Source of the DNA: an uncultured Bacteroidia bacterium
GTDB lineage: Bacteria; Bacteroidota; Bacteroidia; Bacteroidales; UBA932
DNA: 64,000 nucleotides
Direction of reading: 5' to 3'
Assembly: GCA_902785785.1 (NCBI GenBank)
Contig: CADAAA010000006.1
Coordinates: 102,867 to 166,866, forward strand
Shown: positions 982 to 55,735 of the stretch, piece by piece
Layout: the number at the start of each line of letters is the position of its first letter
Numbering within the stretch: the stretch's first letter is position 1
Notes under the pieces: generated by a model
The model's input: the letters and a program-made list of their open reading frames with translations, nothing else
Told to the model about the DNA's origin: nothing
Databases searched by the model: none
Position numbers and translations under genes: made by a program

Positions 982-3765
982 TTACAGTCCTAATTCTGCT
1001 TTCATTGAACGGAGCAGGTCGAATGCCTGCATGGGGGTCATATTGTCAAGGTCTGCGGCATTCAGCTTGTCGCGGATGGCGCCCAGCGTCGGGTCGTCGA
1101 GCTGGAACAGCGACAGCTGGAAGCCGGGGGTTTCTTCGGGCTCAACCGCCGGTTGCACCCTCTCCTTTTCCAAGGGGACGGCCACCGGCTCACGTCTGCT
1201 AGTACCCCGTTCGGGGGACGCCGACCCGTTCCGGGTAAATGCTCGCCCGGTGGCCGTCTCCTCGGAAGAAGGAGTCATTCCGTCAGATTCTTCCATGCTG
1301 ACGATGGACATCTTTTCCGCAAGGCCGTAGACGCGCGGGGTGGAGCCGCCTTCGAGCTGCGCGAGGGTGCGCTCGGCGGAGTCGAGCACCTCGCGCGGCA
1401 TGCCGGCCAGCCGCGCCACGTGGATACCGAAGCTGTGCGCAACGCCACCTTCCTTCAGTTTGCGGAGGAAGATGACCTGCTTGCCGGCCTCCTTGACCGC
1501 GATATGGAAATTCTTCACGCGCGGATAGATGCTCTCGAGATCGTTCAGCTCGTGGTAATGCGTCGCGAAAAGGGTCTTGGCGCGGTGCCCGTGCTCGTGG
1601 AGATACTCCACCAGGGCGCGGGCGATCGACATGCCGTCGTAGGTCGACGTGCCGCGGCCGATCTCGTCCAGCAGCACCAGCGAACGCTCCGAAAGGTTGT
1701 GCATGATCATCGCCGTCTCGAGCATTTCCACCATGAAGGTGGACTCGCCGCGGGAGATGTTGTCGGATGCGCCTACACGGGTGAAGATCTTGTCGAAATA
1801 CCCTATGGTGGCGCTGTCGGCCGGCACCCAGCTGCCGACCTGGGCCATCAGCACGATGAGTGCGGTCTGGCGCAAAAGGGCGGACTTACCGGCCATGTTC
1901 GGGCCGGTGAGGATGATTATCTGCTGCTGTTCGGCATCAAGATAGACGTCGTTCGGGACGTACTCCTCGCCGGGGCCCATCATCTTCTCGATGACTGGAT
2001 GGCGGCCAGCGCGGATGTCGAGGGCGAGGCCGTCCGTCATGACCGGACGGCAGTAGCCGCTGTCGGCCGCCAGGTCGGCGAAGCCGGACAGGACATCCAG
2101 CCGCGCCAGTATCTGGCAATTGGCCTGAATGTCGCGGATAAAGCTTTGGATCTCTCTCACGAGATCGGAATATATCCGGCTCTCAAGCTCGTAGATGCGT
2201 CCTTCAGCCGAGAGGATCTTCTCCTCATAGACTTTCAGTTCCTCTGTGATATAACGTTCGGCATTGACAAGTGTCTGCTTGCGTATCCACTCCTCAGGGA
2301 CCTTGTCCTTGAAGGTGTTGCGGACCTCGATGTAGTAGCCGAATACGTTGTTGTATCCTATTTTCAGCGAGCTGATGCCCGTGCGTTCTATCTCGCGCTG
2401 CTGCATCTGCAGGAGGTAGTCCTTGCCGCCCCGGGAGATGTCGCGGAGCTCGTCCAGTTCCGCGTCCACGCCGGGGGCGATGATATCGCCCTTGCCAAGC
2501 TGGGCGGCGGGGTTGGCGGCCATCGTGCGACGGATGTCGCCGAGGAGGCCGCCGCAGCCGCGCAGTTCCCCGACCATACGGTCGAGTTCGGCCACGCCGC
2601 GGCCGCGGCAAAGCGCGGCGACCGGGTCGGTCTGCTCCAGCGAACGCCCGAGCTGCATCACTTCGCGCGGCAGGATCTTGCCGGTCGCCGCACGCGAAAG
2701 GATGCGCTCCAGGTCGCCCACGTTGGACATCAGTTCCTGAAGCTCACGAAGGTCCCCGTCCTCTTTCACGAAATGCTCCACCACGTCGTAGCGGGCGTTC
2801 AGCTCGGCGATGTCAAGGACTGGCATCGAGAGCCATTGGCGGAGCAGGCGGGCGCCCATGGGGGAACTGCAGCGGTCGATGACATCGACCAGCGAAGTTC
2901 CCTCCGCGCCCGCAGCCGACCCGAATATCTCGAGGTTGCGGAACGTGAACTTGTCCATCCAGACGAACTTTGAGCCGTCTATCCTGGATATCGAGCAGAT
3001 ATTGCCCAAACCGGAATGGTGCGTCTGCTCCAGATAGACGAGCAGCGCCCCGGCGGCGCAGATGCCAAGCGGACAGGAATCTATGGCAAAACCCTTCAGT
3101 GACTTGACTCCCAACTGCTTGCGGAGCTTGTCCTCGGAAGCGTCCTTGACGAAAGCCCATTCGTCCAGGGTCGTGATATATGCCTGGGTTCCGTACTTTT
3201 CCTTGACGGACTTCTCGTAGCCGCGCGGCACGACGAGCTCCTTCGGAGCGAAGGAGGCCAGCAGCGTACCGACATAGTCGGCCGTACCTTGCGCGACCTT
3301 GAATGTACCGGTGGAAGCATCCAGGAAAGCGGCTCCGCAGCTCTCTCCGTGGAAGAACAGTCCTGCCAGGAAATTGTTCTCCTTCTGGACGAGCATCTGC
3401 TCCCCGAAAGCGACACCGGGGGTCACTATCTCAGTAACGCCGCGCTTGACGATGTTCTTCGCCAGTTTCGGATCTTCAAGCTGGTCGCAGATGGCCACTT
3501 TGTAGCCGGCACGGATCAGCTTCGGCAGATAGGCGTCGATGGCGTGGTACGGAACGCCGGCCATGGGGATGGCGTCGGCCATCGCACTGGACCGCTTGGT
3601 CAGCACGATACCGAGGACCTTGCTGGCTATCGCAGCGTCCTCGCCGTAAGTCTCGTAGAAGTCCCCGCAACGGAACAGCAGTATGGCATCGGGGCACTGG
3701 GCCTTGAAGCTGAAGAACTGCTTCATCATCGGGGTCATCGGATCTTTTTCCTTCGTCTTCGCCAT
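982..3765 (-). CDS. mutS: DNA mismatch repair ATPase MutS
   Basis: Recognises base mismatches and small loops and starts methyl-independent mismatch repair. The 927-residue product begins with the mismatch-binding domain containing the FYE motif (about residues 37-39, in CGDFYETYG). It continues through connector, lever and clamp domains to the ATPase domain, with Walker A GPNMAGKS near residue 625, the SRGESTFMVEM segment and Walker B LVLLDEIGRGTSTYDG. The C-terminal dimerisation tail is present. At 927 residues it is longer than typical MutS proteins (about 850-880). Part of the excess is a palindromic insert encoding residues about 836-860 (GRAFTRNGSASPERGTSRRE), which lies in the flexible linker after the ATPase domain and so probably does not disturb function. 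The YfhO-like gene follows after one base. Confidence 0.97.
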   Translation of the reverse strand: MAKTKEKDPMTPMMKQFFSFKAQCPDAILLFRCGDFYETYGEDAAIASKVLGIVLTKRSSAMADAIPMAGVPYHAIDAYLPKLIRAGYKVAICDQLEDPKLAKNIVKRGVTEIVTPGVAFGEQMLVQKENNFLAGLFFHGESCGAAFLDASTGTFKVAQGTADYVGTLLASFAPKELVVPRGYEKSVKEKYGTQAYITTLDEWAFVKDASEDKLRKQLGVKSLKGFAIDSCPLGICAAGALLVYLEQTHHSGLGNICSISRIDGSKFVWMDKFTFRNLEIFGSAAGAEGTSLVDVIDRCSSPMGARLLRQWLSMPVLDIAELNARYDVVEHFVKEDGDLRELQELMSNVGDLERILSRAATGKILPREVMQLGRSLEQTDPVAALCRGRGVAELDRMVGELRGCGGLLGDIRRTMAANPAAQLGKGDIIAPGVDAELDELRDISRGGKDYLLQMQQREIERTGISSLKIGYNNVFGYYIEVRNTFKDKVPEEWIRKQTLVNAERYITEELKVYEEKILSAEGRIYELESRIYSDLVREIQSFIRDIQANCQILARLDVLSGFADLAADSGYCRPVMTDGLALDIRAGRHPVIEKMMGPGEEYVPNDVYLDAEQQQIIILTGPNMAGKSALLRQTALIVLMAQVGSWVPADSATIGYFDKIFTRVGASDNISRGESTFMVEMLETAMIMHNLSERSLVLLDEIGRGTSTYDGMSIARALVEYLHEHGHRAKTLFATHYHELNDLESIYPRVKNFHIAVKEAGKQVIFLRKLKEGGVAHSFGIHVARLAGMPREVLDSAERTLAQLEGGSTPRVYGLAEKMSIVSMEESDGMTPSSEETATGRAFTRNGSASPERGTSRREPVAVPLEKERVQPAVEPEETPGFQLSLFQLDDPTLGAIRDKLNAADLDNMTPMQAFDLLRSMKAELGL
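1162..1274 (-). repeat. In-frame coding palindromic element, copy 1 (inside mutS)
   Basis: A 58-base core (1189-1246) is flanked by inverted arms of 27-28 bases (1162-1188 and 1247-1274). The arms pair except for two mismatches, one of which can wobble, and one bulge. In the mutS reading direction the core matches the core at 54224-54281 at 51 of 58 bases. The core is read as GRAFTRNGSASPERGTSRRE. A small nested hairpin (CCCC, GAAC, GGGG) sits inside it. The arms have a different sequence from those of copy 2 yet are self-complementary. Confidence 0.85.
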
Positions 3766-24953: not shown

Positions 24954-25137
24954 CTCATTCGCCGGCGATTTGGCAAGCGCCCGGCCCCTTTCCCTTTATC
25001 TACCCCATGTCCGGCCATATAAAAAGATGTTTTTTTTGAGTCTCACGTCAGAAAAATATCTTTTTGTATGAAAAAGACAGATTGTTTTCGTAGCATTGCG
25101 ACGGAACAGGCTGTTCCGTACAAATCATTTATGAACT

Positions 25138-53390: not shown

Positions 53391-54746
53391 ATGATAATGA
53401 AAAGGATAGTATTGATTGTCCCTGTTGTGTTTTTGGCCGTGGCGGTTTTGTTTGGGGCAACGGAATCAGCGGGTACCGGAAGAGAGATCACCGTGATGTT
53501 CTGGAATATGGAGAACTTTTTCGATTTCAAGGATGACGGGACGGGGGAGTCCGACGCGGAGTTTTCGGCTACAGGGCCGAGACGATGGAGCAAGGCAAGA
53601 TTCTACAGGAAATGCCACGCTGTTGCAAAAACCATTTTGTGGGCGGGAAGCGGAACGGTACGAGGCGGCGACAATAATGCCTATACCTCTTTGCCTGATG
53701 TCGTGGGAATGGCGGAGGTAGAGAACGGGTTTGTCCTGACGCAGCTTGTGACCAAGACGGCATTGCGTAAACTGGACTACAAGATCGTGCATTTCGACTC
53801 TCCGGATCCACGGGGGATTGATTGCGCGCTGCTGTACAGGGCTTCCAGGCTCACGCTGGTGAGCGCGAAGCCTTGCCGGGTCAGCGCGCCGGGACTTCAG
53901 ACCCGTGACATCTTGCTGGCACAGTTCATTACAGCCGCCGGGGACAGTCTTGCGGTGCTGGTAAACCATCATCCGTCCAAATATGGCGGCGGGGAGACGG
54001 ACTGGCGGCGTGAGGTCGCCGTGGCCCGCTTGCGGGCCCTGGGCGACTCCCTGGCCACCTCCGGCTGGCCTTTGGCCGTCGCCGTAGGGGACTTCAACGA
54101 CACCCCGGACAACCCCCTCTTCACCCGCCTCCTCCCGGCTTTTTCCCTTTGTAGGATGACCGAGCCGGCAACAGCACATGAAAACCGTCTGGAAAGGCTG
54201 TCTTCGGAGGGGGATGCCGCCGGGCGAGCATTTATCCGGAACGGGTCGGCGCCCCCCGCCAGGGGCATTAGCAGACGTGAGCTGGCGGCATCCCTCTCCG
54301 AGGACGCCAGCCAACTCCAAAAAGGCACTCTTTACGATGACTTCGGAAATGATCGATCTTCTGCGTTCTCGCATGAGGGCAAATCGTCATTGCGGGGACA
54401 GGGCAGTATACGGTTCAACGGGGAGTGGCAACTGATTGACTTGTGCTTCGTATCGCCGGCGCTGGCGGATGCGGCGTCCTTCTCCGTCCTGGAACCTCCG
54501 TTCCTGACGGAGCGTGACGCCGCCCACTCCGGCGAGAAGCCCCTCCGGACCTATTCCGGCCCCCGCTACCTCGGCGGCGTCAGTGACCACCGCCCCATCC
54601 TCGTCCATGTCACCTTGCCTGATGCACCCTCTTTCCCTTCACCCAAATACAGCTTGTACAAAAGAATCATCCAGAATAGAAACTACATGTACAAGTGGTG
54701 GGCTAATAATAGAAAACAACACGAAACACAAACAGCTTGTACATAA
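53391..54746 (+). CDS. Secreted endonuclease/exonuclease/phosphatase family protein with palindromic insert
   Basis: 451 residues with signal peptide (MIMKRIVLIVPVVFLAVAVLFG). EEP motifs: MFWNMENFFDF, VVGMAEVENG, VLVNHHPSKYGGGETDWRRE, VAVGDFNDTPDNPLF and GGVSDHRPILV. Residues about 275-303 (GRAFIRNGSAPPARGISRRE) come from a palindromic element also found in mutS, placed in a loop before LYDDFG. The last ~30 residues after FPSPKYS are encoded by the RAYT-linked TTGTACA repeats, and the stop codon lies in the second repeat unit, so the native C-terminus has been replaced or extended. Substrate unknown. Confidence 0.85.
   Translation: MIMKRIVLIVPVVFLAVAVLFGATESAGTGREITVMFWNMENFFDFKDDGTGESDAEFSATGPRRWSKARFYRKCHAVAKTILWAGSGTVRGGDNNAYTSLPDVVGMAEVENGFVLTQLVTKTALRKLDYKIVHFDSPDPRGIDCALLYRASRLTLVSAKPCRVSAPGLQTRDILLAQFITAAGDSLAVLVNHHPSKYGGGETDWRREVAVARLRALGDSLATSGWPLAVAVGDFNDTPDNPLFTRLLPAFSLCRMTEPATAHENRLERLSSEGDAAGRAFIRNGSAPPARGISRRELAASLSEDASQLQKGTLYDDFGNDRSSAFSHEGKSSLRGQGSIRFNGEWQLIDLCFVSPALADAASFSVLEPPFLTERDAAHSGEKPLRTYSGPRYLGGVSDHRPILVHVTLPDAPSFPSPKYSLYKRIIQNRNYMYKWWANNRKQHETQTACT
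54201..54304 (+). repeat. In-frame coding palindromic element, copy 2
   Basis: Arms 54201-54221 and 54284-54304 pair over 21 bases with two G-T wobbles and no true mismatch. The 58-base core at 54224-54281 matches the mutS copy at 51 of 58 bases, in the same frame and direction. Left arms of the two copies match at about 22 of 29 bases, and changes on one arm are balanced on the other. Confidence 0.85.
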
Positions 54747-54779
54747 AATCCTCCTCAAAACGAGAATCAGCGTACAAGC
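54651..54779 (+). repeat. Left pair of TTGTACA palindromic units beside the second RAYT
   Basis: Unit A: CTTGTACA (54653-54660) / TGTACAAG (54688-54695). Unit B: GCTTGTAC (54735-54742) / GTACAAGC (54772-54779). Unit starts are 82 bases apart and share the context ACAGCTTGTACA. A pair also stands on the other side of the gene. Confidence 0.8.
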
Positions 54780-54796
54780 CACTAAGACTAAAACGA

Positions 54797-55735
54797 ATGA
54801 AAACACTCAAACATCTTTGCTACACATCACATGGAGAGGTGATGTTCAGGAATGTGGACGATATGAACTACGCGTTCAATTCCCTGTGTTCAGCCTTGTA
54901 TAAAACTGACAGCATCTGTCTGGCGGAGGCATTTATCTCGACCCACCATCACGGCTGTTATCTGACTTCCCTTCCGAGGGAACTGATGCATATCCATAGG
55001 ACGTCCTATACAAAATATTTCAACAATAAGTATGGCAGAACAGGATCCTTGGGAGAAAAAGGCTTCTTCATGCAGGAGATAGACGGCCTAAGACACCAGG
55101 TATCGGCAATTACTTATGTATTGAAGAATCCTGTCCATCATGGGATCAGCGCAACTCCGTTTGCATATCCGTATTGTTCTGCCAACGCATTCTTCAGGAA
55201 AGATCTTGGAAAGGATTTTTCGCCTCGTTTGCTGACAAGTGAACAAATACGGATGTCCCTTCCGCGACGTGCAGAATTCGATCCGTCCTGGAAGATGGGA
55301 ACGGAAGGGGTCTTTCTGCGCGAATCGGTATTGGAAACGGCAATGGTTGAAAGCTTGTATTCCACTCCTCAGGCATTCAACTATATGCTTTCCAGGAAAA
55401 GCGGGGAAGACTGGGTAAAGGAACAGGACATGGACTCCGTCTCTTGTCCTCCGGTTACCCTTGAGAATATTGAATCACCACTCTTCACCGGTGGCTCGGG
55501 CAAAGAAGACTCTTTGTTCCATATGCTGCAGAATGAACGTTCGCGTTTCAACCGTTCCGTAATGACAGACCTCAGACTGTGCGGGATTGTCGACATGGAA
55601 TTAGCATCCGGGAAAGCCCCGCGGACGGTCTATCAATTGTCCAACGAAGAAAAGATATGCCTGGCGAATGAAATACACAGGCGTTTCCATTGTGGTAAGG
55701 AGCAGATCAGACGTTGTCTAGCAATGAATGGTTAA
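54797..55735 (+). CDS. RAYT-type Y1/HUH transposase, second family
   Basis: 312 residues from ATG 54797 (MKTLKHLCYTSHGEVMF); the frame is open to a TTG inside repeat unit B. The HUH motif is in FISTHHHGCYLTS and the likely nucleophile Tyr in AITYVLKNPVHHG. A 180-residue C-terminal extension contains a helix-turn-helix-like end (LANEIHRRFHCGKEQIRRCLAM). Not closely similar to the RAYT at 14945-15889 and flanked by a different repeat. Inferred to act on the flanking TTGTACA units. Confidence 0.82.
   Translation: MKTLKHLCYTSHGEVMFRNVDDMNYAFNSLCSALYKTDSICLAEAFISTHHHGCYLTSLPRELMHIHRTSYTKYFNNKYGRTGSLGEKGFFMQEIDGLRHQVSAITYVLKNPVHHGISATPFAYPYCSANAFFRKDLGKDFSPRLLTSEQIRMSLPRRAEFDPSWKMGTEGVFLRESVLETAMVESLYSTPQAFNYMLSRKSGEDWVKEQDMDSVSCPPVTLENIESPLFTGGSGKEDSLFHMLQNERSRFNRSVMTDLRLCGIVDMELASGKAPRTVYQLSNEEKICLANEIHRRFHCGKEQIRRCLAMNG

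Follow-up and report, generated by a model that had tools for sequence, protein, structure and literature searches.

Dispersed palindromic elements with conserved cores and copy-specific arms, carried in frame in genes of a Bacteroidales genus

Two hairpins in unrelated genes

The DNA analyzed here (the window) is a stretch of 64,000 nucleotides from an uncultured Bacteroidia bacterium of the order Bacteroidales (GCA_902785785.1, contig CADAAA010000006.1, positions 102,867 to 166,866), hereafter the home genome. It contains two palindromic elements, E1 and E2, inserted in frame in mutS and in a gene of the endonuclease/exonuclease/phosphatase family, respectively. An earlier note, made from the letters alone, had described a 58-base core common to both genes, and realignment confirmed 51 identical positions out of 58 between 1189-1246 (minus strand) and 54224-54281 (plus strand). 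A 31-base pattern covering the most conserved part of this core, termed core 1, is matched twice in the window, against zero matches expected from 100 shuffles. A second metagenome-assembled genome (MAG) of the same genus (presumably Cryptobacteroides), G193, carries further copies and is used throughout for comparison. The features of the two loci are as follows.

982..3765, minus strand: mutS, host of E1, 927 amino acids (Pfam MutS_I to MutS_V)
1162..1274, minus strand: E1, core-1 element, whole hairpin, in frame in mutS (folding)
1189..1246, minus strand: conserved 58-base core of E1, hairpin loop (identity to the core at 54224)
1166..1188, minus strand: E1 arm, 3' of the core on the minus strand (inverted-repeat scan)
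1247..1269, minus strand: E1 arm, 5' of the core on the minus strand (inverted-repeat scan)
1224..1236, minus strand: possible small inner hairpin in the E1 core, ACCCG GAA CGGGT (sequence reading)
53391..54746, plus strand: host gene of E2, endonuclease/exonuclease/phosphatase family (Exo_endo_phos_3, PF19580, E 2.6e-53)
54195..54310, plus strand: E2, core-1 element, whole hairpin, in frame in the endonuclease gene (folding)
54224..54281, plus strand: conserved 58-base core of E2 (alignment with the E1 core)
54200..54223, plus strand: E2 left arm (inverted-repeat scan; aligned with the left arm of the G193 copy, same insertion)
54282..54305, plus strand: E2 right arm (inverted-repeat scan; paired changes relative to G193)

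Both cores form the loops of hairpins whose arms reach 23-24 bases or more, a palindromic structure that the earlier note had seen only in part. E1 is predicted to fold as a single hairpin of -66.3 kcal/mol (z -6.48) and E2 as a single hairpin of -75.3 kcal/mol (z -6.38), and for neither was any of 200 shuffles equally stable. The only other inverted repeat of the window with a score of at least 15 is a short-loop hairpin at 25016-25070, while three block shuffles of the window gave 1, 0 and 2 such repeats. The host proteins belong to unrelated Pfam families, and the two segments are read in frame with the peptides first reported. Domain V of MutS ends at residue 805 and the E1 insert lies beyond it, in keeping with the linker position after the ATPase domain that had been proposed.

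Core 1: copies, relatives and empty sites

Seven copies of core 1 were found in the home genome: those of mutS and the endonuclease gene, one in folC (recognized by TIGR01499) and four apparently intergenic ones. Three of the latter stand in tandem on contig C7, outside recognized genes, and another, E5, lies upstream of ribosomal protein genes (gene identity judged by eye). The element measures approximately 105-125 bp including its arms, and no gene of its own was seen. Besides the home genome, a looser core-1 pattern retrieved only G193 among 400 genomes of the genus; with up to two mismatches allowed, core 1 had no match among 60 relatives. G193 holds at least three copies (endonuclease gene, mutS and a methylase gene placed in the SpoU family through its home-genome orthologue), and public contigs labeled "uncultured Bacteroidales bacterium isolate RUG470" match these loci at 100% identity. 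A scan of GTDB contigs with the looser pattern gave 18 matches, of which three are real, all from RUG470; the other 15, judged by eye to lack the downstream part of the core, were discarded. No match to core 1 or core 2 (see below) was obtained in IMG/VR.

Several sites are empty in relatives. The folC gene lacks the element in G193, G012 and G030, with flanks that align on both sides, and the intergenic E5 site is empty in G193. Similarly, the MutS tails of the 29 best-scoring of 60 other genus genomes align without the core-1 segment, in a linker of variable length in which two of the 29 carry repeat-like peptides of other kinds. The mobility suggested at the outset is thus borne out by further copies and by sites found empty. 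These copy and empty-site data refute the notion that the two window segments resemble each other by chance, through a shared protein domain or through an assembly artefact, which we regard as practically negligible: shuffling predicts no match, the host families are unrelated, several registers and both strands are used, and a second MAG (G193, that is RUG470) carries core 1.

The reading of the core differs between copies. The same orientation and frame had been noted for the two window copies, which is correct for them and fails as a rule: mutS and the endonuclease gene use one forward register, folC another, and G193 mutS and the SpoU methylase gene read the core from the reverse strand. 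Core 1 therefore has no single conserved peptide frame. Selection for open frames within the core was also considered and found unsupported, the number of open frames being close to that of shuffles. As for the inner hairpin ACCCG GAA CGGGT, its positions are invariant across eight core-1 copies, the first two excepted; it forms in single-sequence folds of the folC and E5 copies and is absent from the core-1 consensus fold.

Other repeats were seen at or near these sites. The MutS linkers of G024 and G080 (L033, L039) contain other repeat-like peptides, HCRLDRQSPS and RHYEEQSDVVIS, and ribF (L119) contains RHSERSEESI; we take all three to resemble translations of other dispersed palindromes. 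Next to the tandem core-1 copies (L004 1301-1600, G000:C7 near 131 kb), four hairpin-like repeats GGAAC...ATTTCTGTTCC were noticed by eye. In G193, about 5.6 kb of other DNA (C80 7092-12701, L137) occupies the place of this tandem cluster.

Core 2, a second and commoner family

At the place where the SpoU methylase gene of G193 carries core 1, the home genome has a different hairpin, whose conserved center we call core 2. It shares the layout of core 1, a conserved core within a long outer stem. With at most one mismatch, the core-2 motif occurs in 161 of the 400 genus genomes, with up to 30 copies per genome and 14 in the home genome; the reversed pattern, used as a control, gave none in the rows shown. 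Nine copies were located in a 1.42-Mb sample of the home genome. Seven are in frame in the SpoU methylase, aroK, truB, ribF, atpG, tilS and recR genes, and two could not be assigned to a recognized gene. These hosts were named with NCBIfam and Pfam, with all shikimate kinase models staying below cut-off for aroK, and the RlmB model below cut-off for the methylase, which passes SpoU_methylase in Pfam. For aroK, ribF, tilS and recR, the best profile stretch begins or stops near the insert.

Core-2 copies are not enriched in open reading frames (ORFs): 48 of 74 fall in ORFs of at least 150 residues, compared with 328 of 370 random windows. The aroK gene, which carries core 2 in the home genome, is empty in G193, where its loop differs otherwise too. 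Comparing six G193 copies with the sample of the home genome gave one orthologous site, atpG, which is filled in both. Beyond the two cores, a scan of 622 kb for inverted repeats (score of at least 16, loops of 25-140) returned 21, against one in a block-shuffled control; they include three core-1 copies, three core-2 copies and pairs resembling repetitive extragenic palindromes (REPs). A plasmid search gave no match to core 2.

The dispersal of the copies, the empty sites, the in-frame use and the existence of two core families with one layout are direct observations. That core-1 and core-2 elements are selfish and mobile is well supported.

Arms pair within copies and change in pairs

The arms of these elements differ between copies, a feature which, along with the second core and the use of either orientation, goes beyond the earlier note. 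Within core-2 copies, the mean pairing score of the two arms is 18.4 (n = 74; four of 78 copies, too near a sequence end, were dropped), and 50 of 74 reach at least 14. When a left arm is set against the right side of another copy, the mean drops to 6.4 with a maximum of 12, and none of 296 combinations reaches 14. Of 50 listed core-2 copies, 20 entered a consensus fold, in which all ten outer-stem pairs change on both sides with pairing kept.

Pairing declines away from the core. In 35 of the 74 copies, picked for long and well-paired arms, it stays at or above 0.88 up to nucleotide 25 from the core (0.88 at nucleotides 21-25), then drops to 0.46 at nucleotides 26-30 and 0.24 at nucleotides 31-35; this choice of copies biases the inner values upward. 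In the same long-armed copies, left-arm identity between different copies is 0.24-0.47, with its peak adjoining the core.

Where two copies could be compared, all double changes in the arms were complementary. Six two-copy comparisons comprise 155 stem pairs, of which 128 are unchanged, 11 changed on both sides to remain complementary and none changed on both sides with loss of complementarity, although by our estimate about one in three independent double changes would be complementary. Six further pairs changed on one side and still pair, nine are broken and one is unalignable. Four comparisons are aligned through their flanks (endonuclease gene, L181/L211, truB, ribF) and provide eight complementary doubles, six single changes that keep pairing and six broken pairs. 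The other two, L158/L160 (both from G193) and L167/L168, provide three doubles and three broken pairs; they may not each represent one insertion, since their likeness extends over no more than 174 and 199 bases. The endonuclease copy (E2 compared with G193) accounts for six of the double changes, two of which are G-C to C-G, and for one broken pair; truB has two broken pairs and no double, and the ribF arms are unchanged between the compared copies.

Paired changes of this kind might also arise if the elements served the host as RNA or single-stranded DNA (for example as terminators or as processing or regulatory sites) with selection maintaining the pairing. The cores are indeed conserved and predicted to fold, and the arms show compensatory changes. 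We nevertheless consider such a function unlikely, as copies lie within unrelated coding genes in either orientation and in several registers, insertion sites differ between close species, the nine one-sided arm changes break pairs, and Rfam contains no match to core 2 at gathering scores (six loci) or to core 1 up to E 5 (five loci).

Source of the arms

Two sites at which an empty counterpart is available connect the arms with the target. At E5, the right arm TTACGGCGG-TGTCGAAAA carries on the native flank of the empty site, a likeness equaled by 1 of 5000 shuffles, and its inverted copy forms the left arm. In folC, GLAA, found at the same place in the empty G193 gene, is encoded by the left arm, of which the right arm is an inverted copy; here 202 of 5000 shuffles did equally well. 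At aroK, no likeness to the G193 empty site was seen for either arm, with 3809 and 4964 of 5000 shuffles doing equally well. The regions for all three tests were picked by eye, and with two sites for and one against, an origin of arms in the target flank is suggestive only.

These data bear on a rival explanation that places the making of the arms in the insertion event itself: the core, on entering, would prime the fold-back copying of about 20-25 bases next to the target. Such an event would yield an inverted duplication of host sequence, where a direct target-site duplication is usual. In its favor, arms are fairly even in length: they end 27-35 nucleotides upstream of TGCC in 50 of 74 core-2 copies, and pairing falls past nucleotide 25. 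Arms moreover change far faster than cores, and those of 14 copies of the home genome have no long match in the sampled 1.42 Mb besides the partner arm and sister copies, the best other matches being 13-19 nucleotides. Set against this explanation, together with the aroK result, are the motif GGCWGCGGAC, common to arms of folC, the C7 tandem copies and the G193 methylase copy, which implies that part of the arm is inherited, and the partial likeness of arms within G089 and within G082. The view that all arms are inverted copies of their targets was scaled back after the aroK mismatch and the finding of partly inherited arms, and attempts to recognize native arms by protein comparison with other genus members proved too noisy for use. 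We hold the formation of arms at insertion to be possible, though doubtful.

A related proposal, which we put forward tentatively, is that the terminal repeats are not the element's own. Only the folded core would be inherited, and during or after each insertion about 25 host bases from one side would be copied inverted to the other, giving private matched arms, with paired change and core flips following later.

Arms were also compared between copies within the same genome. For the 28 pairs whose cores are at least 95% identical, arm identity over nucleotides 9-25 is 0.52-0.53, with a background of 0.33. Set beside the core identities, this indicates that inheritance accounts for part of the arm sequence at most and that arms evolve much more quickly than cores; such fast change favors rewriting at or near insertion.

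Orientation of the cores

The core may be turned around at a given site. In mutS, core 1 is oppositely oriented at the same place in the home genome and G193, and the same holds for core 2 in atpG. A small third hairpin in folC is also reversed between the two genomes, and a second copy in the home genome is unflipped. This third family (L135 9244-9320, folC around residues 241-307) has a 25-base loop and arms, with one copy in G193 and two in the home genome, one of which is reversed with other arms. Opposite cores could reflect inversion between matched arms or separate insertions.

Template switching as a likely cause of matched arms

The explanation that we favor, with a probability of roughly 0.55, is that these are selfish palindromic elements whose arms are rewritten by template switching after landing. 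An element would spread within the genus and persist at sites that lie between genes or that allow it to be read in frame within a protein. After landing, template switching by DNA polymerase between the arms would keep them matched and rewritten: one arm would be copied into the other, copying could overrun the old end into the host flank, and switching between arms could flip the core. This process, which we infer as the cause, would account at once for arms that match yet are private to a copy, for changes in pairs, for flipped cores and for arms that extend into the flank. As for movement, an enzyme acting in trans might recognize the core, folded as single-stranded DNA (or RNA), and move the element.

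Such arm conversion has precedents. In yeast coding inverted repeats, template switching is reported to homogenize arms and to invert spacers (PMC8604942). Quasi-palindrome mutation through template switching is described for E. coli (PMC7202029).

Several observations weigh against the favored explanation. One-sided changes break nine of the 155 stem pairs, including two in truB and three in L167/L168, so that arm matching is not continuous. Covariation supports only 3 of 13 predicted pairs in the core-1 consensus fold and is almost absent from the inner core-2 stems in the 20-copy fold, although stems that hardly vary are uninformative either way. Arm identity in same-genome copies whose cores are less than 90% identical is 0.39-0.46, which indicates that it tracks core identity poorly, and the value of 0.52-0.53 at near-identical cores means a change faster than we can account for by slow in-place correction alone. 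The opposite cores found at one place could represent two independent insertions. Lastly, no mobilizing enzyme was found in this analysis.

Protein-coding palindromes are best known from Rickettsia, and the present elements add, from a large genus of the Bacteroidales, two families that differ in their cores and agree in their layout. Both empty and filled sites are available from at least one pair of close species, which makes the insertion of such palindromes testable, as well as whether polymerase template switching, and not selection, matches long hairpin arms within genes. Arm rewriting would add new amino-acid stretches to essential proteins.

Neighboring gene and other repeats

Adjoining the E2 host gene is a further feature of the window:

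54737..55735, plus strand: ORF weakly resembling a REP-associated tyrosine transposase (RAYT) (NF047646)

This ORF lies directly downstream of the endonuclease gene, and several CTTGTAC / GTACAAG repeats were seen by eye ahead of it (54640-54800). It scores 18.1 bits with NF047646, below the cut-off of 80, and a Pfam search of it gave no match. Its location raises the question of whether core-1 and core-2 elements are REP-type repeats moved by the protein encoded beside E2, all the more as the home genome contains inverted pairs GACGGTCC..GGACCGTC that resemble REPs and in most cases have GTAG at their foot. We find this improbable: besides the low score, the GTAG repeats would seem more natural partners for an enzyme of this kind than our elements, which, having arms that differ between copies, lack a stem common to them.

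Dispersed inverted pairs of the type GACGGTCCANNNTGGACCGTC, in most cases with GTA(G) ahead of them, resemble GTAG-type REPs and occur at the following loci:

L119 12298-12391, L133 5821-5912, L143 17336, L144 2975, L145 11453, L235 16465: GACGGTCCANNNTGGACCGTC pairs

Another hairpin family has arms near GAGCGAAAACGGC and an inner CGGCAGATGC (L120 3953-4064 and 7367-7490; L130 17241).

Comparison with known systems

Literature searches gave no recognized description of the core-1 or core-2 sequences, and the sole match to the string CCACCCTCGGCA was unrelated, judged by its title.

Miniature inverted-repeat transposable elements (MITEs) have terminal inverted repeats common to all copies and cause a direct target-site duplication. 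The elements described here differ, as their arms pair within a copy only and conservation is at the center; no obvious target-site duplication was present at three empty sites (folC, E5 and aroK), no systematic search having been made. In REPs, the stems are conserved and a tetranucleotide tag stands at one end. Our elements have a longer conserved loop and lack the shared short stem, their arms being unrelated between copies (the tag was not scanned for). REPs measure 20-40 bp. GTAG and CGTC REPs, with which RAYTs are associated, are small dispersed palindromes that sometimes lie within genes (PMC3733652). By the features tested, the elements are neither REPs nor MITEs.

Other coding palindromes share single features. 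Palindromic amphipathic repeat coding elements (PARCELs) are coding repeats with dyad symmetry that have spread between genomes (PMC2996958); they are tandem 25-residue protein repeats, whereas the present elements are single dispersed hairpins. In the mitochondria of Nematomorpha, perfect inverted repeats occur within coding genes, as here, and are thought to be actively maintained, with quasi-palindrome conversion discussed; the available text (PMC6649704) describes no dispersed conserved core, and they are not mobile elements. In the yeast quasi-palindrome study (PMC8604942), arms are at least 7 bp, and 10-16 bp among the table rows listed, whereas the arms described here are about 25 bp long and form part of a dispersed element.

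The closest likeness is to the Rickettsia palindromic elements (RPEs), already invoked in the earlier note. These comprise several families of palindromes of 100-150 bp, which occur in intergenic regions and in frame in unrelated genes and are reported to encode a conserved peptide, according to the accessible parts of PMC10969869 and PMC4316617. The comparison holds for behavior, namely a size of approximately 105-125 bp in which no separate gene was seen, and the presence of copies between genes as well as in frame within genes that are unrelated. It does not extend to one conserved encoded peptide per family, which core 1 lacks. The available text of these sources does not speak of RPEs in which a conserved core is flanked by unrelated arms, and RPE repeats are said to lose identity with time (available part of PMC6649704), whereas here the arms also show paired changes. 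An RPE-like mode of life fits the elements described here, a likeness of behavior drawn from described features and not from comparison with any RPE sequence.

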